Positions 11,213-43,213 of a stretch of 64,000 bases of DNA are shown here, piece by piece. Position numbers and translations under genes: made by a program. Positions within the stretch are counted from its first letter, which is position 1. Every line of letters starts with the position of its first letter. The stretch is from an uncultured Bacteroidales bacterium (GTDB lineage Bacteria; Bacteroidota; Bacteroidia; Bacteroidales; Muribaculaceae): the NCBI GenBank assembly GCA_902777835.1, contig CACYVC010000004.1, forward strand, positions 1 to 64,000, read 5' to 3'. The notes under the pieces are model-generated. The model was not told where the DNA came from, searched no databases, and saw only the letters and a list, made by a program, of their open reading frames with translations.

Positions 11213-11220
11213 TATTTTTG
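11213..11220 (+). promoter_or_regulatory. -7 box of the dockerin-SusD gene
   Basis: TATTTTTG. Transcription would start near 11227, which excludes the upstream in-frame start at 11220 and supports the ATG at 11259. Confidence 0.5.
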
Positions 11221-11258: not shown

Positions 11259-14027
11259 ATGAATAAATTAACTTCACGCATTATGCAGATTATGGTTGCA
11301 ATGGCAATCATGATGTGCCCTACTTCGGCCTGGGCTTTATATGGCGACGTGAATGGAGACGGTGACATCACATCATCCGACGTCACAGCTATCTATAACT
11401 TCTTGCTCAACGGAGATCAGACCTATGCCTCAACTGCTGATATCAACGGCGATGGCGTCATCACTGTTACCGACGTGACAATTATCTACGACATCTTGCT
11501 GGGCAATATACCACAAGTTGTAGATAACGAGGACGCCCTCTTTAACCGCTGCTACGCAACCTTGCGAAGCGAGGAAAACATCAGCGTTTCTGGTCTTGAC
11601 GTTTCACAAACCTCTTTCCTTCGCTCAATGTGGCTGCTCAACACCATCACTACCGACGAGGCTTACTGTGTTTGGTCTGATTATGGCATTAAAGAGATGA
11701 ACACCAACCAATGGGGCAGCGACCTGCCGCAAGCCGCAGGCCTGTTCTATCGACTGTGTGCCAATATTGACGTGTGCAATCAATATCTTGCCAATGCTGC
11801 CCAGCATGACGATGCCCACAATGGCGAGATTCGCACTCTGCGTGCCCTATACCATTACTACTTGATGGACATGTTTGGTGATGTGCCTTACAACACCAAC
11901 GCATCAACCCCAACCATCAAAGCAGCCCAACTGCCTCGTGCTACGGTTTACACAAAACTCATCACTGAGTTGCAGGCTTGCGAAAGCATGCTTGTAGAGC
12001 CACGAACAAATGCGTACGGTCGCATCGACAAGGCTGCTGCATGGATGCTACTTGCCCGCATCTGTCTCAACCAGAGCACATATTCACCTTCCACTAATGT
12101 TACTTTTGTTAGGAATGCGCTCACAACGGCCAAGACTTATGCCAAAAAGGTGCTAGACTCAAGCTATCAGCTCAACACCACCGGCACAAGCAGTTTCAAT
12201 TCTTATCAGATGCTTTTCTTGGGCGACAACGACACCAATGGTGCACAAAAAGAGATAATATGGCCAATACCTTACGACAGCAATGATAACTTGGATTACC
12301 AGTGGTCAGGATCCACTTTCCTCGTAGCTGCTTGCGCATCTTATGATACCAACAACTACCCCAACGGCATTAACGGCCAGTGGAGTGGCATGCTGGCAAG
12401 ACCGCAGTTTGCCAGCCGTTTCGGCATAAACAACGTCTCTACAACTCTCACTACTGCCAATACCCCAGCACAGATGGTTGCCAGTTTTGGCGACAAGCGC
12501 GCTCTGTTCTTCAACGACAATCCCAATCCCTATAATGCCATCATTGAGAACATGTCGTTCTCAAGGGGTGTGGGATATCTCAAGTATCTCAATATGAAGA
12601 GCAACGGAACCAACCCCTATTCCACTTTCGCCAGCACCGACTTCCCTCTCATGCGTTACGCCGAGGCCATTCTCACCTACACCGAGGCCGACACACGCCT
12701 CAACAGCGGCACATGCTCAAGCGAGGCATTGGCAGTGCTCAACACCCTGCTGCAGCGCTCAGGCGCCTCAACGCTTTCCAGCGCCAACACCAGCGCATTC
12801 TCTGACCTGTGGAGCAAAGAGTTTGGCTTCGAAGGTCGCCACCGTGTTGATTTAATAAGATTTGGGAAATATGGTAGCAGCATAGGCCAAAGCACGACAC
12901 TCTGGAACTGGAAGGGTGGCACCATAGGCGGTCGTGCATTTGACAACAGCAAGAACGTCTTTGCCATCCCAGCACAGGCACTGCAAAACAACAGCAACCT
13001 CACTCAGAACGACGGCTATGACATTAACTACGGAACTATTCAAACCACGATGAGCGTTGGTTCGCCCTACGGCAGCAGCACCGTTACGTCATGTACTATG
13101 AGTTTGACTCCCATCACAAGCACTACACACATCATCTACCCAGAATATGAGGTAAGGATTGCCGACAATGCCAACATGGACAACTATCAGGTGTTTGACA
13201 AATTTGCATTAAATGATGGAGCCACCGACTATGTCTTTGATATCGAAAAGGTGAAGACATATGCCCAGCAGCACAACACCAGCAACCTGTACTTCCAGCT
13301 TTTCAGCAACGTAAACGGAACTGGATATGCCTATTCTCAAGTCCGTAATGTTGACTTTGGCTTCGACCTGACCATTATGCCTTACTGGCTAGTGGGCGAC
13401 TGCGTGGGCGACGGACTTTGGACTAACGATAGCGACCCCTACAACAGCAGCATGGTCCCCATGCTTCCTAACGAGGATGGTAATTTCGTTTATGCCGGTT
13501 ATTTCCCTGCAGGCGGACAATTCATGATTGTCTCTAATCCAGGCAGCTGGACGGGCGTGGTCTATGGTGGCAATGAGTATGGCGGCCAGCAGTGGAGCGG
13601 GTCAGGTTATCCTCCTAACGGTGCCAACATAACTATCACTCAGGCGGGTTACTATCACCTTTTCCTTTATGCCGCAACTCATGAGCTCACAATTTCATAT
13701 ATGGGTGAACAACCAACCTACGAAGCAATGGGCATCATTGGTGACTTCAACAATTGGTCGTTGGATGAAGAGATGGGTATGATGAGTTATGATTACGATA
13801 ATCACAACCACGATTGGAATTCAATACTCTATCTCAATGAAGGTGGAGTTAAGTTCAGGGCCAACTACTCATGGGGCGACAACTGGGGTGGCAGTACCTT
13901 TCCAAGCGGCATAGCCACTAAGAATGGACCTAATATTCCTGTAACACAAGGCTGGCACAAAGTGTACTTCAACGACATCACTGGTGCCTATTTCTTCACA
14001 CCCACAACATCTCCCTACGACAAATAA
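11259..14027 (+). CDS. dockerin-SusD-SusE/F-like fusion, starch-binding surface protein
   Basis: 922 residues from ATG 11259. After a signal peptide (to about SAWA, residue 26) come two dockerin-like calcium loops, D30-x-N-x-D-G to D41 and D61-x-N-x-D-G to D72, each followed by an IY(N/D)xLL helix. Residues about 90-610 are SusD/RagB-like (IRTLRALYHYYLMDMFGDVPYN, then FPLMRYAEAILTYTEA). Residues about 614-700 resemble the SusE/SusF Ig-like part, and about 701-815 and 820-920 resemble its carbohydrate-binding modules (GIIGDFNNWS). SusD normally caps a SusC transporter as a lipoprotein; here no SusC gene is adjacent and the Cys20 context (IMMC) is a poor lipobox. It probably binds starch at the cell surface. 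The single reading frame argues against an assembly artefact. Confidence 0.8.
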   Translation: MNKLTSRIMQIMVAMAIMMCPTSAWALYGDVNGDGDITSSDVTAIYNFLLNGDQTYASTADINGDGVITVTDVTIIYDILLGNIPQVVDNEDALFNRCYATLRSEENISVSGLDVSQTSFLRSMWLLNTITTDEAYCVWSDYGIKEMNTNQWGSDLPQAAGLFYRLCANIDVCNQYLANAAQHDDAHNGEIRTLRALYHYYLMDMFGDVPYNTNASTPTIKAAQLPRATVYTKLITELQACESMLVEPRTNAYGRIDKAAAWMLLARICLNQSTYSPSTNVTFVRNALTTAKTYAKKVLDSSYQLNTTGTSSFNSYQMLFLGDNDTNGAQKEIIWPIPYDSNDNLDYQWSGSTFLVAACASYDTNNYPNGINGQWSGMLARPQFASRFGINNVSTTLTTANTPAQMVASFGDKRALFFNDNPNPYNAIIENMSFSRGVGYLKYLNMKSNGTNPYSTFASTDFPLMRYAEAILTYTEADTRLNSGTCSSEALAVLNTLLQRSGASTLSSANTSAFSDLWSKEFGFEGRHRVDLIRFGKYGSSIGQSTTLWNWKGGTIGGRAFDNSKNVFAIPAQALQNNSNLTQNDGYDINYGTIQTTMSVGSPYGSSTVTSCTMSLTPITSTTHIIYPEYEVRIADNANMDNYQVFDKFALNDGATDYVFDIEKVKTYAQQHNTSNLYFQLFSNVNGTGYAYSQVRNVDFGFDLTIMPYWLVGDCVGDGLWTNDSDPYNSSMVPMLPNEDGNFVYAGYFPAGGQFMIVSNPGSWTGVVYGGNEYGGQQWSGSGYPPNGANITITQAGYYHLFLYAATHELTISYMGEQPTYEAMGIIGDFNNWSLDEEMGMMSYDYDNHNHDWNSILYLNEGGVKFRANYSWGDNWGGSTFPSGIATKNGPNIPVTQGWHKVYFNDITGAYFFTPTTSPYDK

Positions 14028-14273: not shown

Positions 14274-14867
14274 ATGATGAGTGAACGAGATATCAGTAAA
14301 GGCTGCAAGCGGGGCAATGCAAAAGCTCAGCGCGCTCTCTTTGACCGATACTCGCCACTGCTGATGGCAAAAATTTACAGGTATGTGGGCGATGACGACG
14401 ATGCCAAAGATGTGCTCCAAGACACCTTTGTCAAAGCCTACACTATGATCGACAGCTTTGCTTGGGAGGGTGAAGGCTCGCTGCAAGCGTGGCTCACACG
14501 CATTGCGGTGAACACCTCGCTCAACTTCTTGCGCAGCCGCAAGCGGCTCAGCGCGTTGAGTGTTGACACCGCCGACATTGATGACCCGCCCGACATTGCC
14601 GAGGAGGCCACAGCCACACAGGTCAACAGCCTCGACACCAGCACCATCCTTGAGATGGTAGCAGAGCTGCCCGATGGCTACCGCACGGTGTTCAACCTAT
14701 ACTGCCTCGATGGTTACTCCCACAAAGAAATTGCCCAGCAGTTGGGCATTAACGAGAAATCATCATCGTCTCAGCTAGCTAGAGCAAAAGCCATCTTGGC
14801 ACAGAAAATCAAGAAATACATTAACGAGCACAACATCGATAACTACTATGAGCAACAATATGAATAA
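14274..14867 (+). CDS. ECF-family RNA polymerase sigma factor
   Basis: 197 residues. Region 2 (about residues 20-95) holds AKDVLQDTFVKAYTMIDSF and the helix LTRIAVNTSLNFLRSRKR. Region 4 (about 130-185) holds PDGYRTVFNLYCLDGYSHKEIAQQLGI. There is no region 1 or 3, as in ECF factors. The start may be either of two adjacent ATGs. The 3' end overlaps the next gene by 20 bases, so the two are made together. Two copies of a bipartite promoter-like element lie upstream, suggesting autoregulation (inferred). Confidence 0.92.
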   Translation: MMSERDISKGCKRGNAKAQRALFDRYSPLLMAKIYRYVGDDDDAKDVLQDTFVKAYTMIDSFAWEGEGSLQAWLTRIAVNTSLNFLRSRKRLSALSVDTADIDDPPDIAEEATATQVNSLDTSTILEMVAELPDGYRTVFNLYCLDGYSHKEIAQQLGINEKSSSSQLARAKAILAQKIKKYINEHNIDNYYEQQYE

Positions 14868-16230
14868 TAATGACTGGCTCGACGCTTTGAAGCAAAAAGC
14901 CCAAGACGCCACCCGAGAGGTTCCAGAGGGAACGTGGGAGGCTATCGCCAAGTCGGTCGGCAAGCAAGCAGCACCAGTGCGGCAAGCGAGGATTGCTCCT
15001 CGCATGTGGCGCGCCGCAGCTGCTGCAGCCGTTGTTGCCATAGTCGCCACCACGGGATTCTATTTGTTCAACAACAAACCCGCCGACAGTGGGCAACTAG
15101 CAAAGACACAAGACGACCGCACTCCCTCGGTTGTGGATGAGGCCCCAAGCACAAGCAATGAGCAGACACCCGCTGTAACCGACGAGACACTGCTAGCTCA
15201 GGACAACAGCATTCCGTCGCAACCGTCCACTACCCTGCCCCCCACCTACGACAGAGTCCCACGGCAGGACTACGCTAACCGCACCAATACTCGCCCGATC
15301 ACAGCCGATGATGATGAAATAATCAACAATGAGCTATTGGCCGCCAACTTCAACGAGCCTATCGACCTCACCGACTACCCTAACGAGTTCGACCCTGAGA
15401 ATTACTACTATGACATCGAGACCATGCTGGCGCTTGAAGAACTGTATAACCAGTATGACAACGCCATGAATCAAGATGCGATGGAGCCTTGGAAGAGCTA
15501 TACCGACAGCACCTATCAGGAGTATCTCGTCTATGATGCCAACGCCCGTAAGGTAGCGCGCGAGAAAATGGCGCTCACCAAGCCTGGCAAGAAGCCAACA
15601 ATGCTTCTGGCGGCCTATGGTAACGGACTCGTTTCAACCGATCGCAACAGCACCGTTAGCGGCTCTTCGGCGCAGATGCTGCTGCCACCCGCCACGCCAC
15701 CACCAGGCATGATGCTCGCCCCTGCGGCACCAGGCGTAACACCCAATGTGGCACCGCCTGTCAACTACGACTACCATCACCACATGCCACTCACCTTTGG
15801 TCTCACCTTCAACAAGCGCATCGTGGGAAACCTCTATGGTAACATAGGACTGAACTTCACCTCCATGACAAGTGATGTCACCCCCGACAATGGCGGCGAC
15901 AAGTTTAAACAGGACATCAAGCTTATAGGTATTCCTTTTGGCGTGAGATGGAACTTCTGGCGATATAAGGGTCTCTCCACCTTCGTTGGTGGTGAAGGAA
16001 TGGTCGAAAGAGTGGTTGACGCCTCATTCGGCAAAGAAGATGTCACCATCAAGCGACTGCAATGGTCGGTACACGCTACCGTCGGAGCGCAATACAATTT
16101 CACCAAGCATGTGGGAATATACATAGAGCCCAAACTCTCGCACTACATTACCACCATGCCTCTAAACACCCTGCGCAACGAGCATCCATTCAACTTCAAC
16201 CTACAGATGGGATTGTCGGTTGATTTCTAA
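14848..16230 (+). CDS. membrane-anchored ECF partner with beta-barrel-like C-terminus
   Basis: 460 residues. The N-terminal about 50 residues are cytoplasmic-looking (DWLDALKQKAQD, PEGTWEAIAKSVG), then one Ala-rich membrane helix near residues 55-70. A long low-complexity linker carries acidic and Asp/Asn/Pro segments. The last about 150 residues alternate hydrophobic and polar residues like outer-membrane beta-barrel domains of the PorT/OMP_b-brl type, ending NLQMGLSVDF. Its overlap with the ECF sigma gene and its topology suggest an anti-sigma or sensor role, but no classical zinc anti-sigma motif is visible. How a barrel-like domain and an inner-membrane helix coexist in one chain is unclear. 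Confidence 0.65.
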   Translation: MSNNMNNNDWLDALKQKAQDATREVPEGTWEAIAKSVGKQAAPVRQARIAPRMWRAAAAAAVVAIVATTGFYLFNNKPADSGQLAKTQDDRTPSVVDEAPSTSNEQTPAVTDETLLAQDNSIPSQPSTTLPPTYDRVPRQDYANRTNTRPITADDDEIINNELLAANFNEPIDLTDYPNEFDPENYYYDIETMLALEELYNQYDNAMNQDAMEPWKSYTDSTYQEYLVYDANARKVAREKMALTKPGKKPTMLLAAYGNGLVSTDRNSTVSGSSAQMLLPPATPPPGMMLAPAAPGVTPNVAPPVNYDYHHHMPLTFGLTFNKRIVGNLYGNIGLNFTSMTSDVTPDNGGDKFKQDIKLIGIPFGVRWNFWRYKGLSTFVGGEGMVERVVDASFGKEDVTIKRLQWSVHATVGAQYNFTKHVGIYIEPKLSHYITTMPLNTLRNEHPFNFNLQMGLSVDF

Positions 16231-17677: not shown

Positions 17678-20608
17678 ATGAAAAAAATCTATCTATCATT
17701 AGCATCATTGGTCATTGCCATCAGCGCAATGGCACAGGGATGGCCTGCCAACTATGGTGGCATCATGCTGCAAGGGTTCTACTGGGACAGTTACGAATAC
17801 ACCAAGTGGGATAACCTAACAGCACGCAGCGAGGAGCTGGGATCGATTTTCGACCTTATATGGGTACCCAACTCGGCGATGACACGTGGCGGCAACACCT
17901 ATCAAACCATGGGGTATATGCCCTACTTGTGGCTCAGACATACAACCGTCTTTGGCGGTCAGAGCAAACTCGTGAGAATGATTCAGACCTACGGCGCCAT
18001 GGGCACCGGCATCATTGAGGACGTAGTACTCAATCACAAGGATGCCAAAGCCTTAGAAGGCGACGGATATCTTGCATTCCAGGACGAGACTGCGGGTACC
18101 TACAGTGTTACATGGGACAATGTGAACTACACAGGCATTGTGTGCAACGATGACGTGGAAGGCGGTGGCGGAAACTACGACACCGGCGAAGGATTTGACG
18201 GCGCACGCGACCTGGACCACACCAACGCACGCGTGCAGCAAAACTGCATCACCTATCAGCGTTTCTTGCTCGACTCGCTTGGATATGTGGGCTTCCGTCT
18301 TGACATGACTAAGGGTTATGCGCCTCAATACACTGGCAAGTATAATGCTGCCACCAACCCCATCTTCTCGGTGGGAGAGTATTTCGACGGCAACACCGAC
18401 CTCCTCAAGCAGTGGATTAACGGCACTACCGTGAACGGAGCAATTCAGAGCGGCACCTTCGACTTCGCCCTTAAGTTTGCCATCAACGACGCATTTGGCG
18501 GCGGCAACTGGGGAGCTTTGAACCTTGCCGGACTCATCGCCGACGACAACTACAAGCGCTATGCCGTGACCTTCGTCGATAACCACGACACCAACGAGGA
18601 CCACAACAAGTGCGGTGGCAACATCGAGGCTGCAAACGCTTTCATCCTTGCCATGCCCGGCACGCCTTGCGTCTTCAGCAAGCACTATGAGGAGTACAAA
18701 GAAGCTATCACCAACATGATTAAGGGTCGCCGCGCTTGCCATGTTACCAACATGAGCAGCTGCACCAGCAGTTCGGTGAGCGGTGGCATAATTTTCACCA
18801 CCACTGGTTCGGTGGGCGACGTGATGGTGCGCCTTGGCTCTGCAGCATCGAGCAGCCCAGGCACTGGGTGGCAACTCGTGCAAAGTGGCACCAACTATGC
18901 CTTCTACATCACTGACGGCATCGATTGGGTTAACAGCGAGAAAATAGGCAAGATTGTGGGCTACCCCGTGATTGACAAACCCAGTGGCGTGTATGCTAAC
19001 TCGGTGACAGTGAAAATCAAACCTTCGATGGCAAGCACCACTTTGGTATATACCACCGACGGCACTAACCCCACTCCCGAGAGCGCTCAAATCACTGGCC
19101 CCACTACCCTCACCTTCACAGAGACTACAACCCTCAAGGTGAGCGCAATCATGGACGGCGAGGTTAACGATATCGTTACACGCAACTACATCATTAGCGA
19201 TGCCGATCCTAACAGCATCACAATTTATGTCAAGGCCGACAATGCCTATCTTTATGCATGGGACGACGGAGGCACACCACTCAATGGCGAGTGGCCAGGC
19301 ACTCTATTGACTCAAAAACGCACCGTTGGTGGTGTGGAGTTCTTTTACAAGACCTTCGCAAAACCCTCTCCTGACTACAGCATCAACTTCCTGCTCAACA
19401 ATGGCGATGGCGATGAGAGCAAGACCGAAGACGTGACCAGTGTTTCGGGCGATGTGTTCTACACCTTTAGCGATGGCGATGCTCGCGACCTGAGCAACAT
19501 CTATCTGGCTGAACTCTACAACCCATTTGTGTGCATCGACAAGCCCAGCGGTGACCTGCCTGCCAATAAGAAGGTTTACATCAACGCCAGCTATGGCGAC
19601 GCCAAGATTGTTTATACCACCGACGGCAGCGAACCCACAGCAGCAAGCCAGCAGGCTACTGCCATGAAGGAACTAACGTTCACTACAGTTGGCGAACAAG
19701 TGACCGTGAAAGCAGGATTGCTTATCAACGATGAGGTGAAGGGCGTGGTGACTCGCGACTACAAGGTTGTGGAGGCCACAAGCGAAGGTGGTGGTAACAC
19801 CAGCAACACCTTGACAATATATTGCAAGGCCACCAGCGCACCCTACATCTACTCATGGGAGGACAACGGAACACAGCACAATGGTGACTGGCCAGGAACC
19901 AAGATGACTACCAGCGAGACTATCGACGGCGTGAAGTGGTGGACCTACACCTACGACGTGAAGCCCATCAACATCATCTTCAACGACGGTAATGGCAATC
20001 AAACTGGCAACATTGTTGGTCTAACTAGCGACAGCTACTTTGAGTATAACGGTACGACTACCGCCACTAACGTCAGCTCGCAGCATACTGACCTCTCCAC
20101 TGCCGACATCCCATCGTGTGCTACCTGGATTGACGGACAGCAGTTTGTTTACTTCGAAGCCAACAACTACTATGAGCCCTACACCTGGATTTGGAATAAT
20201 GGTGGCGCCAACTTCACTGGTGGCGCATGGCCTGGAACTGCACTCATCGACGTGATTGGCGTAGCGCCTAGCGGAAAGAACATCTACCGATGGACCACCA
20301 GCCGCCAAGATGTGCCTACAGGCATCATCTTCAGCAACTATGGATGGCCACAAACTAGTGACTATGAGTTTGTAAATGGCGGTTACTACACCGAGAGCGG
20401 TCTCATAGGAGTCATCGAGGCTATTCCAGTAGTTCATGGAGACGTAAATGGCGATGGCGTGGTTACAGCTGCCGACATTACTGCCATCTACGACATTCTC
20501 CTCGGCGTGAACAACAAATATGAGGAGACTGCCGACGTAACAGGCGATGGTGTGGTAACAGCAGCCGACATCACTGCAGTATATAGCATCCTGCTGGAAA
20601 GCAAATAA
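17678..20608 (+). CDS. secreted multimodular alpha-amylase (GH13) with starch-binding and dockerin-like modules
   Basis: 976 residues with signal peptide (to MAQG). The GH13 domain (about 20-425) has region I EDVVLNHKD, region II GFRLDMTKG (nucleophile D209), region III SVGEYFDG (acid/base E234) and region IV FVDNHDTNED (D304). Then come two chitobiase-C-like beta-sandwiches (about 430-505 and 618-705, each with VYTTDGxxPT) alternating with three CBM26-like modules (about 508-615, 708-800, 818-910, each with a Trp-rich YxWxxxG core and WPGT). The last 59 residues are a dockerin-like module with two calcium loops (DVNGDGVVTAAD, DVTGDGVVTAAD). It should hydrolyse starch outside the cell. The upstream palindrome suggests control by a LacI-family regulator. 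Confidence 0.92.
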   Translation: MKKIYLSLASLVIAISAMAQGWPANYGGIMLQGFYWDSYEYTKWDNLTARSEELGSIFDLIWVPNSAMTRGGNTYQTMGYMPYLWLRHTTVFGGQSKLVRMIQTYGAMGTGIIEDVVLNHKDAKALEGDGYLAFQDETAGTYSVTWDNVNYTGIVCNDDVEGGGGNYDTGEGFDGARDLDHTNARVQQNCITYQRFLLDSLGYVGFRLDMTKGYAPQYTGKYNAATNPIFSVGEYFDGNTDLLKQWINGTTVNGAIQSGTFDFALKFAINDAFGGGNWGALNLAGLIADDNYKRYAVTFVDNHDTNEDHNKCGGNIEAANAFILAMPGTPCVFSKHYEEYKEAITNMIKGRRACHVTNMSSCTSSSVSGGIIFTTTGSVGDVMVRLGSAASSSPGTGWQLVQSGTNYAFYITDGIDWVNSEKIGKIVGYPVIDKPSGVYANSVTVKIKPSMASTTLVYTTDGTNPTPESAQITGPTTLTFTETTTLKVSAIMDGEVNDIVTRNYIISDADPNSITIYVKADNAYLYAWDDGGTPLNGEWPGTLLTQKRTVGGVEFFYKTFAKPSPDYSINFLLNNGDGDESKTEDVTSVSGDVFYTFSDGDARDLSNIYLAELYNPFVCIDKPSGDLPANKKVYINASYGDAKIVYTTDGSEPTAASQQATAMKELTFTTVGEQVTVKAGLLINDEVKGVVTRDYKVVEATSEGGGNTSNTLTIYCKATSAPYIYSWEDNGTQHNGDWPGTKMTTSETIDGVKWWTYTYDVKPINIIFNDGNGNQTGNIVGLTSDSYFEYNGTTTATNVSSQHTDLSTADIPSCATWIDGQQFVYFEANNYYEPYTWIWNNGGANFTGGAWPGTALIDVIGVAPSGKNIYRWTTSRQDVPTGIIFSNYGWPQTSDYEFVNGGYYTESGLIGVIEAIPVVHGDVNGDGVVTAADITAIYDILLGVNNKYEETADVTGDGVVTAADITAVYSILLESK

Positions 20609-24639: not shown

Positions 24640-26643
24640 ATGAAAAAGATTCTACTATTACTGATGGCCTTGCTTGCCACGACCACTGTTTGGGCTGAGG
24701 ACTACTACATCACCGATGTAATGGTCATTGGCGGTTCAAAAAGTGAAGTTGACTTTTTGAAGGTCTCCTACATGGCTCAGGGCTGGACGGTCATCAACCA
24801 GGACCTGAATGCCGGTTGTGGCTCAAGCAGCGACTATATCTATCTGCTCTACAAGTCGGCGAGTGAGACTAATGCTGCTGCCAGTGCTTTTATCACCGAT
24901 TTTGTGATCAGCACACTAGCAGGCACAATTCCCGACAATCTCACGCACAATGGGCGTTCCTATACCCTTGTGCCCTACGATGGCAGCGACTATTTCAAGA
25001 ACAACAAAGGTGACCTGAATAGCCATTGTGGCTCCAGCAGCGCCACTATCCATCTCTATTATACAAAAGAATACAACAAAAATGGAGAAGACTACGGCAC
25101 TGTCAAATCCATTTCCTTCAACAACACGCAGAGTGGTGCCGTAACCACTGGCAGTGGAACAACGGGCTATGACCTCAACTCCGGTGCTGGTGGTGACTAT
25201 ATCTATATGCACACCGACAAGGCGCATGGATGGACTGTCACAAAGAACACTGCTGGCACTGAGTGTATTATTAAAGGCTTTGACGGACCAAAGACAATTT
25301 TTAAAGATATAATCATACCAACTGCTATCGACTCAGCAACGGTATTAGGTTTTTCTGGTATGGACTTCAGCGGCTTCACAAACCTTGAGACAATGTTTTT
25401 CTTTAATAAATCTTCAATTACCCATATGCCGTCAGTGCGAGGCTGCTCCAAGTTCTACAATGTCATGACTCAAAATTTTGATTTCACAACTCCACCTTCG
25501 ATGACAAGTATCCCAGGTTATGCTTTCGCTGGCACGGCTATTAAGCAAATATTGTTTGAATCTGTTACAAGTGTTGGCACCGAAATTTTTTCAGGATGCG
25601 ATAGCATTTCATCTGTCACATTCAATAAATCACCCGTACTTATCGATAATGGTGCTTTTTCCAACATCAGTTCAAACTGCCAAGTATTATATCCAGGTTC
25701 TATAGAGGACTGGAATCCAATGATGTATATGTATTCACCGAACTTGGTTATTAAAAATCCCAACAATAAGTGGTATTGCGGCTGGTGTGGGGCAGCCAAT
25801 GATTCAATTTATAATCATCTCTACTGGATGCAGGTGTCTGATCAGCAGGAATTTGATCATCTGAAAATAAATTGCGCTACTGACGTTTGGGATACCTTTA
25901 CCGAGAAGCAAGTCATTACCACAAAGAATTGGGTAAAAAATTTTGTTCATTTTCTCACTATAGAGCATGTTCACCATTTAAACGCAAGCGAATTTGAAGG
26001 TTATAATTTTGAGTTTGTTGATGTGAAATCTGGACTTGAAAAGATGTATTACCGAACTTTTCATAATTGTACCCGACTCAAAAAAGTAAATCTTCCTTCT
26101 ACTGTTACATTAATTGATGATGAAACATTCAGCGGTTGCATAAAATTAACTGATATATATTTCGATGGCACCGACACGCAGTGGAACGATAATGTGATAA
26201 AGGGAAGTGATTGGAAAATGGATACGGCAACGGTGCACTGGCATTGCACAGTGATTTTCAACGCCAACGGGCACGGTACTGCTCCAGACCCAGTATCAAT
26301 TCAGTGGAGTAACGAGGACAAGCTGGATGAGCCCACTGCACCAACGGCCAATGGCTACAACTTCCTTGGCTGGTTCACCGATGCCGACTGCACCAACCAG
26401 TGGGATTTCAACAACACTATTCCCGGCGACATGACACTCTATGCCGGCTGGCAGGAGATAGTTGTTAACATACCAGGCGATGTGAACGGTGACGGTGAGG
26501 TGACCACAGTAGATGTCACAGCCATCTACAACTACCTGCTCAACGGTGACCAGACCTTCATCGACACGTGTGATGTGAACGGCGACGGCTTTATCACAAG
26601 TGCCGATATCACCGTTATCTACAATATCCTGCTGGGCAATTAG
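24640..26643 (+). CDS. BspA-like leucine-rich surface protein with dockerin-like C-terminus
   Basis: 667 residues with signal peptide (to VWAED). The N-terminal about 170 residues are an unrecognised domain with two similar halves (each with CGSSS near its end). Residues about 230-520 are BspA-type leucine-rich repeats (for example GYAFAGTAIKQILFES, DDETFSGCIKLTDIYF). Residues about 535-605 are one InlB/Listeria-Bacteroides repeat (VIFNANGHGTAPD to LYAGW). The last 57 residues hold two dockerin-like loops (DVNGDGEVTTVD, DVNGDGFITSAD). BspA proteins bind host or polymer surfaces. Its 3' end and first untranslated bases match those of the next gene. Confidence 0.8.
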   Translation: MKKILLLLMALLATTTVWAEDYYITDVMVIGGSKSEVDFLKVSYMAQGWTVINQDLNAGCGSSSDYIYLLYKSASETNAAASAFITDFVISTLAGTIPDNLTHNGRSYTLVPYDGSDYFKNNKGDLNSHCGSSSATIHLYYTKEYNKNGEDYGTVKSISFNNTQSGAVTTGSGTTGYDLNSGAGGDYIYMHTDKAHGWTVTKNTAGTECIIKGFDGPKTIFKDIIIPTAIDSATVLGFSGMDFSGFTNLETMFFFNKSSITHMPSVRGCSKFYNVMTQNFDFTTPPSMTSIPGYAFAGTAIKQILFESVTSVGTEIFSGCDSISSVTFNKSPVLIDNGAFSNISSNCQVLYPGSIEDWNPMMYMYSPNLVIKNPNNKWYCGWCGAANDSIYNHLYWMQVSDQQEFDHLKINCATDVWDTFTEKQVITTKNWVKNFVHFLTIEHVHHLNASEFEGYNFEFVDVKSGLEKMYYRTFHNCTRLKKVNLPSTVTLIDDETFSGCIKLTDIYFDGTDTQWNDNVIKGSDWKMDTATVHWHCTVIFNANGHGTAPDPVSIQWSNEDKLDEPTAPTANGYNFLGWFTDADCTNQWDFNNTIPGDMTLYAGWQEIVVNIPGDVNGDGEVTTVDVTAIYNYLLNGDQTFIDTCDVNGDGFITSADITVIYNILLGN

Positions 26644-26731: not shown

Positions 26732-26827
26732 GAGATTGCACTTCAACAACTTTTGCCACAGTCTTCGATAAACGAAAAACGATAAACGAACTCCCTTCCA
26801 CTTTCCACCTATAAACGATTCCCGACT

Positions 26828-26858
26828 TGACAACTCATAACTCACAACTAAAAACAAC
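26828..26858 (+). repeat. heptamer tandem-repeat tract (AACTCAT type)
   Basis: About four units (ACAACTC, ATAACTC, ACAACTA) just before the start codon at 26866; inverted relative to 26678-26731. Confidence 0.6.
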
Positions 26859-26865
26859 AAATATT

Positions 26866-29800
26866 ATGAAAAAGATTATACTGATTTTTGCAACTTTGCT
26901 CTCGGCGATGACAGCGTGGGCGAGCACGTACACGGTAGACAACGATGGCAACAATTTCATCATCACCCGTAACGGATCGGGCAATGAGACCATTTATTAC
27001 CGCACGGTGAACCTCTCGGCCTTGGCAGGAGAGAACTACACTGAGAGGACAGGAAAACTTATCTTCTCAGAGAATGAAGTCGAAAAGACGATTCCAATTA
27101 ACGAAGTGGACGTCGATTCTTACGTTGACTATAATAATAATATTTATAATCTGCTGTACGCCGTTCAGACCAGCCTCGTGCGCAGCTACCGCTTTGAATT
27201 GCTCAACGGTGACGGCGATGTGTTGGCCTACAAGGACCGTGACATTACATTCGGCAAAAACTACCAGCTTCCTGACGCCTATGTGAATAAGAGTATTACC
27301 GACCTGGTATATTTTGACGACGCCGGCAACTTGACGTCGGGCGCAGGCAACAAGTATCTTGACTTGGGCACTATGCAAAACACGGGATTGAATTGGACTA
27401 AGGTTACTGATGCCGGATATAGTCAGAGTTATCATCTCTTGAAAACAGATGTCTTCAATGGTAGTCCTTATGTGCGCATCTATGCCAACAACCTGGGCAT
27501 GAAAGTTTATGCCACGGTATTTTTTAAGCAAAAGGAAGAAAACGACGGTTATCAGTACATTCAGATTCTTGACAATAATTACGTGTCCTTTGATGGCAAT
27601 GACTCTGACGGTGCGGTCAATGCCCCTGAGATTTCACAATACAAAGCATGCTTTGAGTTAAGCAAAAGCGGTGTGACGACCGATGAACATTACCAGTTCT
27701 TCCCTCACCGCTACGACTTTGTCAACAAAGCTGCCGAACAGAATGCAGGACTGACCCATTACTCGTTCGATTATGGCAACAGCTACCTTTATGAGCAAAA
27801 GTACGTGAGTAATTCCGTCCACCCTGGTAGCTCAGGCTCGCTGATTTTTTCGCCAACGAATTATTATATATGTGTGCGTTTTGATGCTGCAGGCAATGGC
27901 GACGATAATTGGTACTTCAAAGAACTCAAAGCCCGTGTGGCATTGGTCGATGCCACAGCGCCAACTGTAATCAACAACAAATACAGTATCTCTGGTGGCC
28001 GACACAGTAGGGGCAACACTTTCTATGTGAGTGTGGCATTTAATGAGATTGTCACAGTAAGCGGCACACCCACCCTCAACTCCACGTGGGGCTCACTCTC
28101 CTATGTGGCAGGCAGCGGCTCCAACGTGCTCACCTTCAGCGGCACAATCGGCGCAAGCGCCTCAGGCGCCTTAACCGTGAACAGTTATAGCGGAACCATT
28201 ACCGACTTGGCAGGCAACGCCCTCAGCGGCACTATCAACCATAGTTTCAGCACCAACGTAGATGCCCGCTCTTATTCCATATCCTATAATCTGGCTGGCG
28301 GCTCCATTCCCTCTGGACAAAGTAATCCCACCAGCTACACCGACCTGAGTGGCCCCATCACGCTGATCAACCCAGTTCGCGCGGGCTACACCTTCTTGGG
28401 CTGGACTGGCAGTAACGGCACCACACCGCAGACCACCGTCACTATCTCGTCGGGCTCTACGGGCAATCTCAGCTACACCGCCAACTGGTCGGCGCCAATC
28501 AATTACAGTATTACCTACAACCTCGATGGCGGCACGTTGCCTGCAGGTCAAGTCAACCCTACCACCTATAATGCCCAAACAGCTACTTTCACGCTGAACA
28601 ACCCAATAAAAGAAGACTATATCTTTTTAGGTTGGACGGGAAGCAACGGCGACACTCCACAAACCACCGTTACTGTCGCTCAAGGTTCCTCTGGTGACCG
28701 CAACTACACTGCCAATTGGATGCTCAGGCCGCCTCGCTACTCATACGATAGCGAAACTGGCGTCCTGACGCTCAACTGGGGCGATTTCAACAAGGACGAC
28801 AAGTGGGGCGACGATGTGCCAGCCTCGGCCGTCACGAGCGTCACCGCTACCGATGAGGTGAGCTTCACTGGCGATTGCTCGGATATGTTCCAGGGCTTCT
28901 CCAATTGCACGAGCTTTGATTTGAATAGTGTCAATACCAGCAATGCCACAAGTATGAGAAGTTTGTTCACTGGCTGTGCGAACCTGACTACGCTCGACAT
29001 CTCAACCTGGGACACCGGCAATGTCACCGACATGTGGGGCATGTTCCTGCAATGCAACCGCCTCAACTCTCTCGACCTCTCGCACTTCAATACCACCAAT
29101 GTCACAAATATGGCCTTCATGTTCGATAATTGCAAGAACCTCAAAACGCTCAACGTCTCGGGCTGGGACACTGGTAATGTCACTGAAATGTATAATATGT
29201 TTAACTGCTGCTCGAGTCTCAAAAAGCTTGATCTCTCGGGCTGGGTCACTGGTAATGTCACTATGATGAATTGTATGTTCACCGCTTGCGATAGCTTGAC
29301 TACCATCTTAGTAGATCCAGATTGGAACACTGAGAATATCACCAACTCAAGTGACATGTTCGGTGGGTGCTACTCGCTGGTGGGCGGCATGGGCACGACT
29401 TACGACGAGAACCATCTTGATGCTGAGTATGCACGCATCGATGGCGGCTCAGAATGTCCCGGTTACTTCACCCTCAAGTTGCCTCGCTACACCTACGATA
29501 GCGAGACCGGAGTCCTCTCGCTCAACTGGGGCGAGTTCAACAGATATGACAAGTGGGGTGACGAGGTTAATCGCAAAGAAGTCAAGAGCGTCATTGCCAA
29601 AAGCGATGTGAGCTTCACAGGCGACTGCACGATGTTGTTTGAAGGATTCGAAAAATGCACAAGCATAGATTTGAACAGTGTCAACACCAGCAGTGTCAAT
29701 GACATGCACGAAATGTTCTATTACTGCCCAAGCCTCACATCGATTGATATCTCTAATTGGGATACTGGCAATGTCACCAATATGGGATTAATGTTCTATT

Positions 29801-30411
29801 TCTGCTCAAGCCTCACATCGCTTGATATCTCTAATTGGGATACTGGTAATGTCACTGAAATGTATGCTATGTTTTACGGTTGCTTAAACTTGACCTCGCT
29901 CAATATTTCGAATTGGAACACCAGCAATGTCAATGATATGTCTTATATGTTCAGTTATTCCAATGACCTTACTTCGCTTGACCTCTCAGGTTGGAACACC
30001 AGCAATGTCAATGATATGTCTCGTATGTTCGAATGTTGCGATAAACTGACCACCATCTATGTCGGTGACGATTGGACAACTGAGCAAACCGCCAACTCTA
30101 ATAATATGTTCCGTGTCTGTATCTCATTGGTGGGTGGCATGGGAACGACCTTCGACGCAAACCATATAGACAAGGAATATGCCCGCATCGATGGCGGCCC
30201 CGACTGCCCAGGCTACTTCACTGCCGCACCCCAGGGTGTCCCAGGCGACGTGGACGGCGACGGCGAGGTGACTACAGTAGATATCACTGCCATCTACAAC
30301 TATCTGCTCAATGGCGACGAGACCTTTATCGCCACCAGCGACGTGGACGGCGACGGCTACATCACTTCAGTCGATATCACCTTCATCTACAACATCCTGC
30401 TAGGAAATTAG
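26866..30411 (+). CDS. large BspA-like surface protein with duplicated DUF285 block and dockerin-like C-terminus
   Basis: 1181 residues from ATG 26866 (signal peptide to AWAS); the frame extends to 26827 but the heptamer tract occupies that part. After an unrecognised N-terminal region of about 360 residues come one Ig-like domain (ends near ALSGTINHSFST), two InlB-like repeats (each with FLGWTGSNG) and two copies of a roughly 245-residue block with BspA/DUF285 repeats (unit such as LDISNWDTGNVTNMGLMF). The blocks are 750 bases apart, a recent internal duplication. The last about 57 residues form a dockerin-like module (DVDGDGEVTTVD, DVDGDGYITSVD). A cell-surface adhesion or scaffold role is likely but not shown. 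Confidence 0.82.
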   Translation: MKKIILIFATLLSAMTAWASTYTVDNDGNNFIITRNGSGNETIYYRTVNLSALAGENYTERTGKLIFSENEVEKTIPINEVDVDSYVDYNNNIYNLLYAVQTSLVRSYRFELLNGDGDVLAYKDRDITFGKNYQLPDAYVNKSITDLVYFDDAGNLTSGAGNKYLDLGTMQNTGLNWTKVTDAGYSQSYHLLKTDVFNGSPYVRIYANNLGMKVYATVFFKQKEENDGYQYIQILDNNYVSFDGNDSDGAVNAPEISQYKACFELSKSGVTTDEHYQFFPHRYDFVNKAAEQNAGLTHYSFDYGNSYLYEQKYVSNSVHPGSSGSLIFSPTNYYICVRFDAAGNGDDNWYFKELKARVALVDATAPTVINNKYSISGGRHSRGNTFYVSVAFNEIVTVSGTPTLNSTWGSLSYVAGSGSNVLTFSGTIGASASGALTVNSYSGTITDLAGNALSGTINHSFSTNVDARSYSISYNLAGGSIPSGQSNPTSYTDLSGPITLINPVRAGYTFLGWTGSNGTTPQTTVTISSGSTGNLSYTANWSAPINYSITYNLDGGTLPAGQVNPTTYNAQTATFTLNNPIKEDYIFLGWTGSNGDTPQTTVTVAQGSSGDRNYTANWMLRPPRYSYDSETGVLTLNWGDFNKDDKWGDDVPASAVTSVTATDEVSFTGDCSDMFQGFSNCTSFDLNSVNTSNATSMRSLFTGCANLTTLDISTWDTGNVTDMWGMFLQCNRLNSLDLSHFNTTNVTNMAFMFDNCKNLKTLNVSGWDTGNVTEMYNMFNCCSSLKKLDLSGWVTGNVTMMNCMFTACDSLTTILVDPDWNTENITNSSDMFGGCYSLVGGMGTTYDENHLDAEYARIDGGSECPGYFTLKLPRYTYDSETGVLSLNWGEFNRYDKWGDEVNRKEVKSVIAKSDVSFTGDCTMLFEGFEKCTSIDLNSVNTSSVNDMHEMFYYCPSLTSIDISNWDTGNVTNMGLMFYFCSSLTSLDISNWDTGNVTEMYAMFYGCLNLTSLNISNWNTSNVNDMSYMFSYSNDLTSLDLSGWNTSNVNDMSRMFECCDKLTTIYVGDDWTTEQTANSNNMFRVCISLVGGMGTTFDANHIDKEYARIDGGPDCPGYFTAAPQGVPGDVDGDGEVTTVDITAIYNYLLNGDETFIATSDVDGDGYITSVDITFIYNILLGN
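28732..30222 (+). repeat. two 750-base tandem blocks inside the BspA-like gene
   Basis: Block 1 (28732-29481) and block 2 (29482-30222) start with nearly the same bases (CCTCGCTAC followed by CTACGATAGCGA-like sequence) and encode the same domain order, ending with YARIDGGxxCPGYFT. Period 750 bases (250 codons). Confidence 0.75.
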
Positions 30412-40432: not shown

Positions 40433-43042
40433 CTATTTACCCCCTAGCAGTATATTATATACCGCAGTCACGTCGGCAGCAGTAATGTTGCCCTCGCCAG
40501 TCTGGTCTCCGTTGACTATGTGGCTGCTGTCGTCATTAAGCAAGTAGTCGTAGAGAGCAGTCACATCGGCAGCAGTGACCTCGCCGTCACCGTTCACGTC
40601 ACCAAGAATCACCACAGGTGCTGTGCCACTGTTGTAAACAAAGGAAATAACCTCACCGTAGGTAGTATTGGCGGCTCCACTCTCAGTGTTGTAGCTAGCG
40701 CGGGCGCGAGCATAGTAGGTGGTGCCGTCAACCATGAGTTTGTTGTTCACCTTTATCTCTCCTGCAGGCAGCGTGGTGTGGTAAGCGAAGTCGCGAACAG
40801 TCTCCACAAAACGGGTGCGCCCCCACGTGGTGGCGCTAGTCGAAATCTCAATGGTATAAGAAACTGCAGCCTCTTGGCGGTCAACGGTAACATACTGGTC
40901 TCTGTAGAGCGTCCCGCCAGCAGTTGGGATGGCAAACGTCGGAGGAGTGGCTGTGAGATAGGCAGTCTTGAAGGTTACGGTACCTGTTTCACGATAGTTG
41001 CCATTGTCAATCATGTGCACACGCATATAATAATATGTTCCAGGCACGAGGGTGTATTTGGGAATATCAATTTCTCCTGTCGATGAAGTACCACTGAAGA
41101 CTATGTTGTTAAATGTGTCGTCGGTGGCAATCTCTAGAGTCGCCTCGGCATCAGAGCCGCCAGTGAGCCACTGAGCGGTGAATGAGGGATGGATATTGTC
41201 CTGATTGTTCCCAGGATAAATGATAGTAAACACCTGAGGTGCACACCAGCGAATCTCACTAACACCATCGCTGTAGCCCTCGGCACAGGCGCGTACACGC
41301 CAATAGTAGTTGCGTGGAAGGAACTCGCCAAAGGCGCTAGACAAGATGCTTGTATAGGTGGTGGTTTGTCGTTTGACATCGCTAAAGTCCTCGTTAGTCG
41401 CAAGCTCAATCATGTAACCTTGAGCGTTAGGAACGGCCTCCCAACTCATGGTGAATGGGTCTGGAACTAAGGCTCCGTTCTCAGGTGAGAGAAGCACTGG
41501 AGCGTCGAGCTGCTGGTCGGCAGGTGGGATAAGGAATGCTGGTTCAAATTCGTTGTCGGTGCGATCCACGGGACATACAGCATAGTAGTAGCCATACCGA
41601 ACATTTTCGGGAATGGTATAGCTAGTGGTGTAACTCACATCAAGAAGCATCTCGGCATCCTTGGTGAACTGTTCAGGCTCAACGCTGTTGGGCACGGCAT
41701 AGATGGAGTATTTGTAATTGTCAAAACCAGTCCATGAAAGCACATGATCGGTGCTAGTCAGGTTAGTCACCACGCCAGGGTCGGCACCGGGCTTCCAGGG
41801 CATTGAAGGTGGCAGAGCGGGGCGAGTAAACACCTTGCGCTTGAGGTAGGTGGCAAGTTCCTCGTGGTTGCCAGTGCGGTAGAGATACTTACAGCTATAG
41901 AAAATAGCACCTGGAGCATCGTCAAAGCTATAGTCGCGGTTGAGCTGCACCTCGTTGGCATATTCTTCATGCTGCAGTTCGGTACTCGTGCTTGTCATTC
42001 CCGAGATGGAATTGGACACAAATAGCTGACGGTCGAAGTAGTCACACACCTGGTTCCACCAGGGAACAATTTTGCTATAGTCGGCTGTTGCGCCTATCTT
42101 CCAATATACTTGTGGCGAGATGTAATCGATGGTTTTCTCGTTGAGCCAAGCCAATGGATCACTGTAGATGGTGTTGTATTGCCAGTCACTGCCTGCGGGG
42201 CAATGTGGCAAACCATAATTTGGTGCAGAGGTGCCTGCCACGCCAGCGGGCGAGATGCCAAAGCGTATGTCGGGGCGAGTTTCCTGAATCATGTTATAGA
42301 CGGCGCGCACCATGCGGTTGACATTGGCACGACGCCAGTCGCCGAATGTCATATCAACATTGCTGTCAAGCCACTCCTGGTAGTCACCAGCATCGCTACC
42401 ACCAGAAATACCATCGGGATAGAAATAGTCGTCGTAGAGAATTCCATCTACGTCATATTTTGTGATAATTTCTTGGCACACGTTCACAATGCGTTCAATG
42501 GTCTCGTCGCGAGCTGGATCGAGGACCACATAGCTGCCAGCACTTAGCAGCAGCCCCGATTGGCGTAACTCCATGTCTTGGGGGGTTCCTGCTGCATCCC
42601 ATTGCTCAATGCCGTTGCTGCTATAGCGATATGGGTTGATCCAAGCGTGGCATTCCATGCCGCGCTGGTGACACGCCTCAACTGCATAGGCCAAGGGGTC
42701 CCACGTGGGTACCTGGCCACGAGTACCAGTAAGATAACTTGACCAGGGCTCATAACTCGACTCATACATAGCGTCGCACATCGAGCGCACCTGGAAGTTG
42801 ATAGCGTTGAAATTGTTGTTCTTGAGCGAATCTAGCATGCGGTCGAGTTGAGCTTTCTGCTTTACTTCGGCGTTAGCGCCATAAGCTTGTGTCTCGGGCC
42901 AGTCGAGACACCACACAGTAGCCACCCATGCCGAGCGGAACTCGCGCTTGGGTACAGTGTAGGTGTAAGAAGCTGCCTGCATTGCCATGCCATACATAAG
43001 CACCAAAGCTATAAAAGCAGTAAAACGTGTAAATCTTTTCAT
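40433..43042 (-). CDS. GHL10 (family-10-like) glycoside hydrolase with dockerin-like C-terminus
   Basis: 869 residues with a signal peptide (to MQAASY). Residues about 30-400 are the GHL10/DUF187 barrel: opening EFRSAWVATVWCLDWP, then NAINFQVRS, HAWINPYR, GILYDDYFYP and FGISPAGV, with YISPQVYWKIG near the barrel end. Three fibronectin-like domains follow (for example PENGALVPDPFTMSWEAVPNA). The last about 57 residues are a dockerin-like module (DVNGDGEVTAAD, then a weaker loop DQTGEGNITAAD). Relatives act on cell-wall or other polysaccharides; the substrate is not clear. It carries its own promoter box at 43086-43093 and converges on the starch operon. Confidence 0.85.
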   Translation of the reverse strand: MKRFTRFTAFIALVLMYGMAMQAASYTYTVPKREFRSAWVATVWCLDWPETQAYGANAEVKQKAQLDRMLDSLKNNNFNAINFQVRSMCDAMYESSYEPWSSYLTGTRGQVPTWDPLAYAVEACHQRGMECHAWINPYRYSSNGIEQWDAAGTPQDMELRQSGLLLSAGSYVVLDPARDETIERIVNVCQEIITKYDVDGILYDDYFYPDGISGGSDAGDYQEWLDSNVDMTFGDWRRANVNRMVRAVYNMIQETRPDIRFGISPAGVAGTSAPNYGLPHCPAGSDWQYNTIYSDPLAWLNEKTIDYISPQVYWKIGATADYSKIVPWWNQVCDYFDRQLFVSNSISGMTSTSTELQHEEYANEVQLNRDYSFDDAPGAIFYSCKYLYRTGNHEELATYLKRKVFTRPALPPSMPWKPGADPGVVTNLTSTDHVLSWTGFDNYKYSIYAVPNSVEPEQFTKDAEMLLDVSYTTSYTIPENVRYGYYYAVCPVDRTDNEFEPAFLIPPADQQLDAPVLLSPENGALVPDPFTMSWEAVPNAQGYMIELATNEDFSDVKRQTTTYTSILSSAFGEFLPRNYYWRVRACAEGYSDGVSEIRWCAPQVFTIIYPGNNQDNIHPSFTAQWLTGGSDAEATLEIATDDTFNNIVFSGTSSTGEIDIPKYTLVPGTYYYMRVHMIDNGNYRETGTVTFKTAYLTATPPTFAIPTAGGTLYRDQYVTVDRQEAAVSYTIEISTSATTWGRTRFVETVRDFAYHTTLPAGEIKVNNKLMVDGTTYYARARASYNTESGAANTTYGEVISFVYNSGTAPVVILGDVNGDGEVTAADVTALYDYLLNDDSSHIVNGDQTGEGNITAADVTAVYNILLGGK

Positions 43043-43085
43043 TGAGTCTATGTAATTAATAGTTTATAATTCTGTTTAAAACCTA

Positions 43086-43093
43086 CAAATTTA
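43086..43093 (-). promoter_or_regulatory. -7 box of the GHL10 gene
   Basis: TAAATTTG on the minus strand, 43 bases before the start. Confidence 0.5.
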
Positions 43094-43136
43094 CACACTT
43101 TTTTTGAATATATAGTCAATTGTCTAAAAAAGCCAC

Positions 43137-43176
43137 AAAAAAAAGAGGCAAGCTCTTCAAAAAGCTCGCCTCTTTT
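43137..43176. terminator. terminator after the chitobiase-C/dockerin gene
   Basis: AAAAGAGGCAAGCT (43141-43154) pairs with AGCTCGCCTCTTTT (43163-43176) and has T runs on both sides; it ends the minus-strand gene at 43214. Confidence 0.8.
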
Positions 43177-43213
43177 TTAGAGGTTTTAGTCTTTATTACT
43201 TTTACCCTTAGAA

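Follow-up and report, generated by a model that had tools for sequence, protein, structure and literature searches.

SusD is a hallmark of import through SusC, as dockerins are of cellulosomes. The two are united, without SusC, in a single protein encoded at positions 11259–14027 (forward strand) of a 64,000-nucleotide stretch of DNA (hereafter, the window) from an uncultured Bacteroidales bacterium of the family Muribaculaceae (assembly GCA_902777835.1, contig CACYVC010000004.1). The product of 922 amino acids (hereafter, the fusion) carries an N-terminal type I dockerin, a SusD domain and a SusE domain. We consider it somewhat probable that the fusion is a starch-binding subunit that docks into an amylosome-like cohesin–dockerin complex on the surface of a member of the Bacteroidota.

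The frame of the fusion is open for 922 residues from the ATG at 11259, or for 935 if the GTG at 11220 is the start. Four Pfam families match over their cut-offs: Dockerin_1 (residues 28–76, E 2.9e-11), SusD-like_3 (residues 137–270, E 3.7e-11), SusD_RagB (residues 331–587, E 1.8e-18) and SusF_SusE (two stretches from residue 711, E 7.3e-8). The dockerin, with two calcium loops, was delimited by Pfam, alignment and model to residues 28–84 (11340–11510), the SusD domain by Pfam, phmmer and Foldseek to residues 91–588 (11529–13022), and the beta-rich SusE part by Pfam, alignment and model to residues 590–922 (13026–14024), all on the forward strand. The best PDB sequence match is Bacteroides thetaiotaomicron SusD (PDB code: 3ck7; phmmer E 9e-54), and several dockerins were matched too. 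An AlphaFold model calculated from a 34-row alignment has a mean predicted local distance difference test score (pLDDT) of 86.2, with residues 31–80 at 81–91 per block. Foldseek, run with the whole model so that its matches concern the SusD fold, returned SusD structures with target template-modelling (TM) scores of up to 0.88.

A first-pass annotation of the window, made from the letters alone, had described an N-terminal two-loop dockerin-like module, a SusD/RagB domain and C-terminal SusE/F-like modules in one 922-residue frame, and had proposed structure prediction and comparison with SusD. The frame and its first two domains are confirmed by Pfam, phmmer and the AlphaFold/Foldseek comparison, which supports the SusD fold, the dockerin being real by Pfam. 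The SusE/F match likewise holds by Pfam, but not the notion of loose modules: because 11 canonical SusE proteins align across residues 590–922, covering 87–98% of the columns, the C-terminal third corresponds to a whole SusE. The fusion looks like an ordinary susD–susE gene pair joined in frame. The NCBIfam SusD model NF033071 matches over profile positions 41–558 of 558 and scores 298 bits, short of its 725-bit cut-off; with the match beginning only at position 41, the lipobox-bearing head of SusD is replaced by the signal peptide and dockerin. SusD residues Trp98, Tyr296 and Trp320, which we take to be starch-binding residues in this numbering, align with Trp139 (11673–11675, forward strand), Tyr347 and Trp375 (12381–12383, forward strand) of the fusion. 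Present in the one chain are the SusD/RagB fold, the aromatic residues for starch, the SusE domain architecture and a two-loop dockerin with its Asp residues.

The signal peptide was judged by sequence and the lipobox by a regular expression. By the rules for lipobox and signal peptidase I motifs, IMMC at residues 17–20 is a poor lipobox, whereas AWA at residues 24–26, just before the dockerin, fits signal peptidase I well. The Sec signal peptide (11259–11336, forward strand) is expected to be cut by signal peptidase I after residue 26. The SusE part, being internal, has no N-terminal lipobox of its own, and the TIGR04183 model for the C-terminal signal of the type IX secretion system (T9SS) does not match the fusion at E≤1. 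The lipobox expression matches 64 of 65 canonical SusD proteins (the remaining one reads LNSC). By the same expression a plausible lipobox is absent from all 19 loci of dockerin-fused or otherwise lipobox-less SusD, where its three raw matches lie within a dockerin for L111, within a frame that is too long for L119 and within the SusD domain for L147. These 19 comprise 14 with an N-terminal dockerin, one with a C-terminal dockerin, three dockerin-free SusD–SusE fusions and L125, whose SusD bears a different N-terminal extension; nine duplicate loci were left out.

Absence of the lipobox goes together with absence of a SusC neighbour. Among the 65 canonical SusD open reading frames (ORFs) at the loci compared, 63 have at least 1.5 kb of upstream sequence, and in all 63 a same-strand SusC-like gene lies directly upstream within 300 nt. 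Against this, a SusC-like ORF was found in none of the 19 lipobox-less loci when the whole stretch was scanned (at least 1.5 kb upstream in 16 of the 19). There is no SusC-like ORF within the window either, and none of the 21 TIGR04056 (SusC) matches in the source genome, seven of them over the cut-off, falls on the contig of the fusion. An orphan SusC was considered as a partner for the fusion and rejected. A SusD_RagB gene partners each of the SusC genes on contigs C33, C24 (at 61 kb) and C15. After each of those on C24 (at 29 kb), C14 and C7 comes a SusD-family gene, recognised by PF12771 or PF14322 over cut-off, and the seventh, on C43, terminates its contig. Five SusD_RagB matches occur in the source genome, the fusion included. 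An operon on contig C24 comprises a LacI-type regulator, SusC, SusD with a lipobox and SusE, and the start of another lipoprotein there runs off the contig.

The poor lipobox and the lack of a nearby SusC, both remarked upon in the first-pass annotation, are thus borne out, and the genome search for SusC homologues lacking a SusD neighbour yielded none except the C43 gene at its contig end. The 19 loci have no SusC and, by the regular expression, no plausible lipobox, and no other result that the annotation had named as contradicting it was obtained. The suggestion that the dockerin may replace the lipid anchor is supported in so far as these gene and motif patterns allow.

Full-length kin of the fusion were found at 50–51% identity in two genomes, with more distant ones besides, among the matches listed from 150 relatives searched. 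A scan of named genomes, from which the best 80 of 442 relatives were kept as loci, returned 11 ORFs with both dockerin and SusD, eight of which also contain SusE by a local profile; the dockerin is N-terminal in ten and C-terminal in L172, from a Prevotella metagenome-assembled genome (MAG). These ten, the window and the genus loci L099, L101 and L104 make up 14 N-terminal dockerin–SusD ORFs, so that the fusion does recur in related genomes, where the first-pass annotation had proposed to look for it. Kin are found mostly in rumen Bacteroidales MAGs: six of the ten named loci come from rumen or omasum (yak, buffalo, roe deer, goat), one from red deer and three carry no site. That the fusion turns up in several independent assemblies makes a chimeric origin less likely. 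Dockerin residues Asp30, 34, 41, 61, 65 and 72, at the calcium positions, do not vary among the 12 fusions aligned, and Trp139 and Trp375 are retained in 12 of 13 aligned N-terminal-dockerin rows (the same 12 with L112). In the fusions of L101, L126 and L188 the dockerin is of a different sequence class (DVNSDN...VGDVN, for example), which may reflect a different cohesin specificity.

In a phylogenetic tree the 14 N-terminal-dockerin rows fall into two clades of nine and five, the second adjoining the genus's own canonical SusD, and a third clade consists of four Prevotella or Prevotellaceae SusD–SusE fusions. Uniting the 14 rows in one clade is not rejected by the approximately unbiased (AU) test (p 0.103), and that the dockerin fusion arose twice is favoured rather than demonstrated. 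In the Prevotella MAG RGIG7923 a SusD–SusE fusion (L172:2083-5316) and an amylase (L187:12599-14503) both carry a C-terminal dockerin; that of the L187 enzyme, of GH13–CBM26 type, is partial (20.4 against a Pfam cut-off of 22.9).

The source genome (2.89 Mb in 52 contigs, 90% complete) contains at least 133 Dockerin_1 matches at E≤0.001, 150 of 214 candidates having been scored. In the 30 best loci the dockerin stands at the extreme C-terminus in 18, within 56 residues of the frame start in seven and internally in five. The search for cohesin-like proteins, also proposed in the first-pass annotation, gave little with Pfam PF00963: at E≤10, a single ORF with two matches (23.6 and 23.1 bits, the cut-off of 24.1 being reached only with neighbours added) and one further match at E 0.58. 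The 633-residue frame with the PF00963 matches reads as four tandem cohesin-like modules followed by a C-terminal dockerin. A purpose-built profile of 17 modules, seeded from the source genome and five others, matches solved scaffoldin cohesins (best PDB code: 5n5p, E 5e-9) and recovered 16 divergent cohesin modules in nine ORFs of the source genome, two of these modules having been seen by Pfam's model. Four polycohesin ORFs have four, three, two and two modules, and five dockerin–cohesin ORFs have one each; all nine hold at least a partial dockerin, and three of the polycohesin genes adjoin a dockerin–cohesin gene. For the model of a relative's cohesin module, the first 18 rows returned by Foldseek are all cohesins or cohesin-like modules. 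A second docked Sus-like protein, of about 850 residues (L090:5625-8177, on contig C29 of the source genome), has a dockerin followed by a SusE/F-like part without SusD; it matches fusion residues 703–914 at 42%, while Pfam names its dockerin only. Among the matches listed, five genus-mates have a frame of comparable length that aligns with this part of the fusion.

Co-occurrence was assessed in 91 genomes (the source genome, 54 genus-mates and 36 order-mates) with a dockerin threshold of E≤1e-6. Dockerins are present in 58 of the 91, including all 55 of the genus, and cohesins by the 17-row profile in 55, including 53 of the genus. Both occur in 54 genomes, dockerins alone in four, cohesins alone in one and neither in 32 (Fisher p 5e-19, which overstates independence: a single genus dominates the set, and six of the 91 genomes served to seed the profile). 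The generic Pfam cohesin model matches in 35 of the 91 (25 of 55 in the genus, 10 of 36 order-mates), and 9 of 13 recognised fusion-bearing genomes have a cohesin by either model. Genome G093 (C25:211548-221594), from another Bacteroidales family, has 24 cohesin modules, at least eight in a 2467-residue frame and five in a nearby frame of 1239 residues, together with at least 35 dockerins. It is a stronger candidate for a scaffoldin than any in the source genome.

A link to starch is provided by the gene at 17678–20608 (forward strand), three genes on and beginning 3.7 kb downstream of the fusion, which by Pfam encodes a GH13 alpha-amylase that carries two CBM26 modules and, at its C-terminus, a dockerin. 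Amylase genes 81% identical to it follow the fusion in L112 and L113; a homologue was not found in the 8 kb after the fusion in L111. The dockerins of the fusion, the amylase and the tetracohesin ORF share one sequence class. By Pfam and alignment the same class is found at the C-termini of a BspA-type leucine-rich repeat (LRR) protein at 24640–26643 and an LRR/DUF285 protein at 26827–30411 (both forward strand), which are candidates for co-docking.

Evidence for export by the T9SS was sought at the C-termini. SprA, the T9SS channel, is present in the source genome. In the TIGR04183 search of the genome, two of the five single-cohesin ORFs score over the cut-off and a third below; scanned as proteins (cut-off 23), L220, L222 and L091 reach 25.2, 18.7 and 15.3 bits. 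The remaining two have a T9SS-like tail by eye only. Relative L115 has, 5.3 kb ahead of its fusion, a dockerin–cohesin gene whose T9SS tail is weak (15.8 bits). Kin of the amylase outside the genus hint that other Bacteroidales have T9SS tails where the dockerin would stand: a five-row T9SS profile matches 6 of 18 below E 0.01, TIGR04183 lists two of nine tested (L183 and L135, both below cut-off) and the Pfam T9SS signal is found in none of three at E≤0.01.

Taken together, these observations suggest that the product is secreted without a lipid, binds starch as a head-to-tail union of SusD and SusE, and would be plugged by its N-terminal dockerin into a cohesin-bearing scaffold on the surface. 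The scaffold would consist of the polycohesin–dockerin proteins and of dockerin–cohesin proteins ending in the T9SS C-terminal signal. The GH13–CBM26 amylase might be co-docked with the fusion through the same dockerin class, giving a complex that binds and cuts starch, and import would be left to the separate canonical SusC–SusD–SusE operon of the genome. To cross the outer membrane, the fusion could conceivably travel as a passenger of the cohesin proteins with a T9SS C-terminal domain, or its dockerin could itself be recognised; both are guesses. We infer from sequence the cohesin–dockerin binding, the surface location, the starch specificity, the co-docking and the T9SS anchoring.

Several results weigh against this reading. 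The fusion carries no T9SS signal, which leaves its crossing of the outer membrane unexplained, and L222 is over the TIGR04183 cut-off in the genome search and below it as a protein, so that T9SS anchoring of the cohesins is weak. The folded cohesin model comes from two alignment rows and has a pLDDT of 65. No cohesin was found in the fusion-bearing genomes G071, G079, G078 and G063, to which the weak Pfam model alone was applied. The fusion in L116 lacks both Trp residues and has no SusE. Finally, seven of the ten order-mates with Pfam cohesin-like modules have no dockerin at 1e-6, and the fold alone is therefore no proof of a dockerin partner. The presence of such modules in these seven (G094, G106, G107, G110, G111, G115 and G126) indicates that the order also employs cohesin-like domains for other purposes.

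That last point leads to the rival that we take most seriously while judging it unlikely, namely that dockerins in this genus are terminal folding, calcium or sorting modules and that the cohesin-like domains serve other roles. It would account for the excess of dockerins over cohesins (at least 133 against 16), for the dockerin, at least partial, within every cohesin ORF and for the dockerin-free cohesin-like modules of other Bacteroidales. An excess of this kind is, however, also seen in some proven cellulosomes, where dockerins far outnumber cohesins, and genus-type cohesins and dockerins go together across genomes in the counts given above (54 with both, five with one, 32 with neither), which are not independent.

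Two further rivals retain the starch binder and place it elsewhere. A soluble periplasmic maltodextrin binder, or a protein simply released and outside any surface complex, would agree with a Sec signal peptide on a protein with neither lipobox nor T9SS signal; we regard this as rather improbable, as the kin of SusD and SusE are outside proteins, dockerins of the fusion's class are also found on the CBM26 amylase and the LRR proteins, and at least one of the cohesin ORFs passes the T9SS cut-off in both searches. Least credible to us, and very doubtful, is that the fusion is still a surface lipoprotein, attached through Cys20 in an atypical lipobox and working with a SusC made elsewhere, its dockerin being an accessory calcium module. 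Cys20-Pro21 is indeed shared by the fusion and its three closest copies (L111, L112, L113), a Cys lies within the hydrophobic stretch of the further fusions L116, L126, L121 and L104, and over-cut-off SusC genes exist in the genome. Yet Met or Leu precedes Cys20 and Pro follows it, the regular expression finds no small residue before any such Cys, and by the motif rules a signal peptidase I site stands between Cys20 and the dockerin. The late start of the NCBIfam SusD match and the SusD-family neighbours of six of the seven SusC genes, the seventh being at a contig end, point the same way.

With the docked starch-binding subunit as the favoured reading, several known systems can be compared. 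The Sus of B. thetaiotaomicron (SusC, SusD, SusE, SusF, SusG) shares the SusD fold, the aromatic starch residues, a whole SusE and an alpha-amylase nearby; the fusion differs in having SusD and SusE in one chain, no lipobox, no adjacent SusC and an N-terminal dockerin. The amylosome of Ruminococcus bromii (Bacillota) likewise has dockerins on starch-active proteins, a CBM26 amylase and cohesins in the genome, whereas here the host belongs to the Bacteroidota, the binding domains derive from Sus, the cohesins are divergent and the complex is a predicted one. In common with type I cellulosomes (Clostridium, Ruminococcus) there are many dockerin proteins, few polycohesin proteins and a cohesin fold; unlike them, there are at most four cohesins per ORF, the polycohesin ORFs carry a dockerin and the cohesins are barely seen by PF00963. 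The SusD–SusE fusions of Prevotella/Prevotellaceae MAGs (L127, L128, L147) resemble the fusion in lacking a lipobox and, in the stretch, a SusC, and differ in lacking a dockerin. Their C-termini match neither TIGR04183 (E≤1) nor the five-row T9SS profile, but do match an iterated home-made T9SS profile, whose later matches arise by construction; this is a hint that a T9SS signal takes the place of the dockerin.

Dockerins and a few cohesins are already known in the phylum, and the cohesins of the source genome are not the first sign of them. The relevant passages of a 2020 rumen gene catalogue (PMC7260996) describe Bacteroidetes MAGs with dockerins of unclear role and no recognisable cohesin, and consider that Bacteroidetes cohesins may be too divergent for recognition. 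In those of a 2018 camel rumen study (PMC6071333), dockerins occur in several Bacteroidetes bins and one or two cohesins in some: bin 136 has five dockerins and one cohesin in a table and is listed with the bins in which two to four cohesin domains stand in tandem, and bin 129 has two cohesins and no dockerin. Excerpts of PMC7480376 report dockerins in Prevotella MAGs, none within polysaccharide utilization loci and of undefined role. No description of a SusD–dockerin fusion was found in the accessible portions of the open-licence PMC literature, among them those of PMC6118326, PMC3368933, PMC5831590, PMC8810776, PMC9763041 and PMC10266427. Within the same portions, the SusD–SusE–dockerin fusion, its tie to a missing SusC and lipobox, and a divergent cohesin set in the same genomes were not found in print.

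Since the divergent cohesins share genomes with a dockerin protein of well-understood ancestry and ligand, concrete pairs are at hand for a binding test. The fusion hints that these bacteria may hold starch by a cellulosome-like scaffold, so far doubtful in the phylum. A broader proposal, which we consider speculative and unlikely, is a genuine cohesin–dockerin surface organelle in this gut genus, resting on cohesin proteins anchored by the T9SS, which may in addition ferry dockerin proteins that lack an export signal over the outer membrane, and into which Sus binders have been rebuilt, perhaps repeatedly, to plug. If true, this would be a third way to build a glycan-capturing surface in the phylum, beside SusCD lipoprotein complexes and T9SS-attached enzymes.

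Elsewhere in the window, an extracytoplasmic function (ECF) sigma factor and outer membrane protein (OMP) pair at 14274–16230 recurs in L094/L095 and not beside more distant fusions, and was taken as unrelated. On the minus strand, the region 40433–45193 encodes two further dockerin proteins, one GHL10 glycosidase-like and the other CHB_HEX_C/Fn3-associated.

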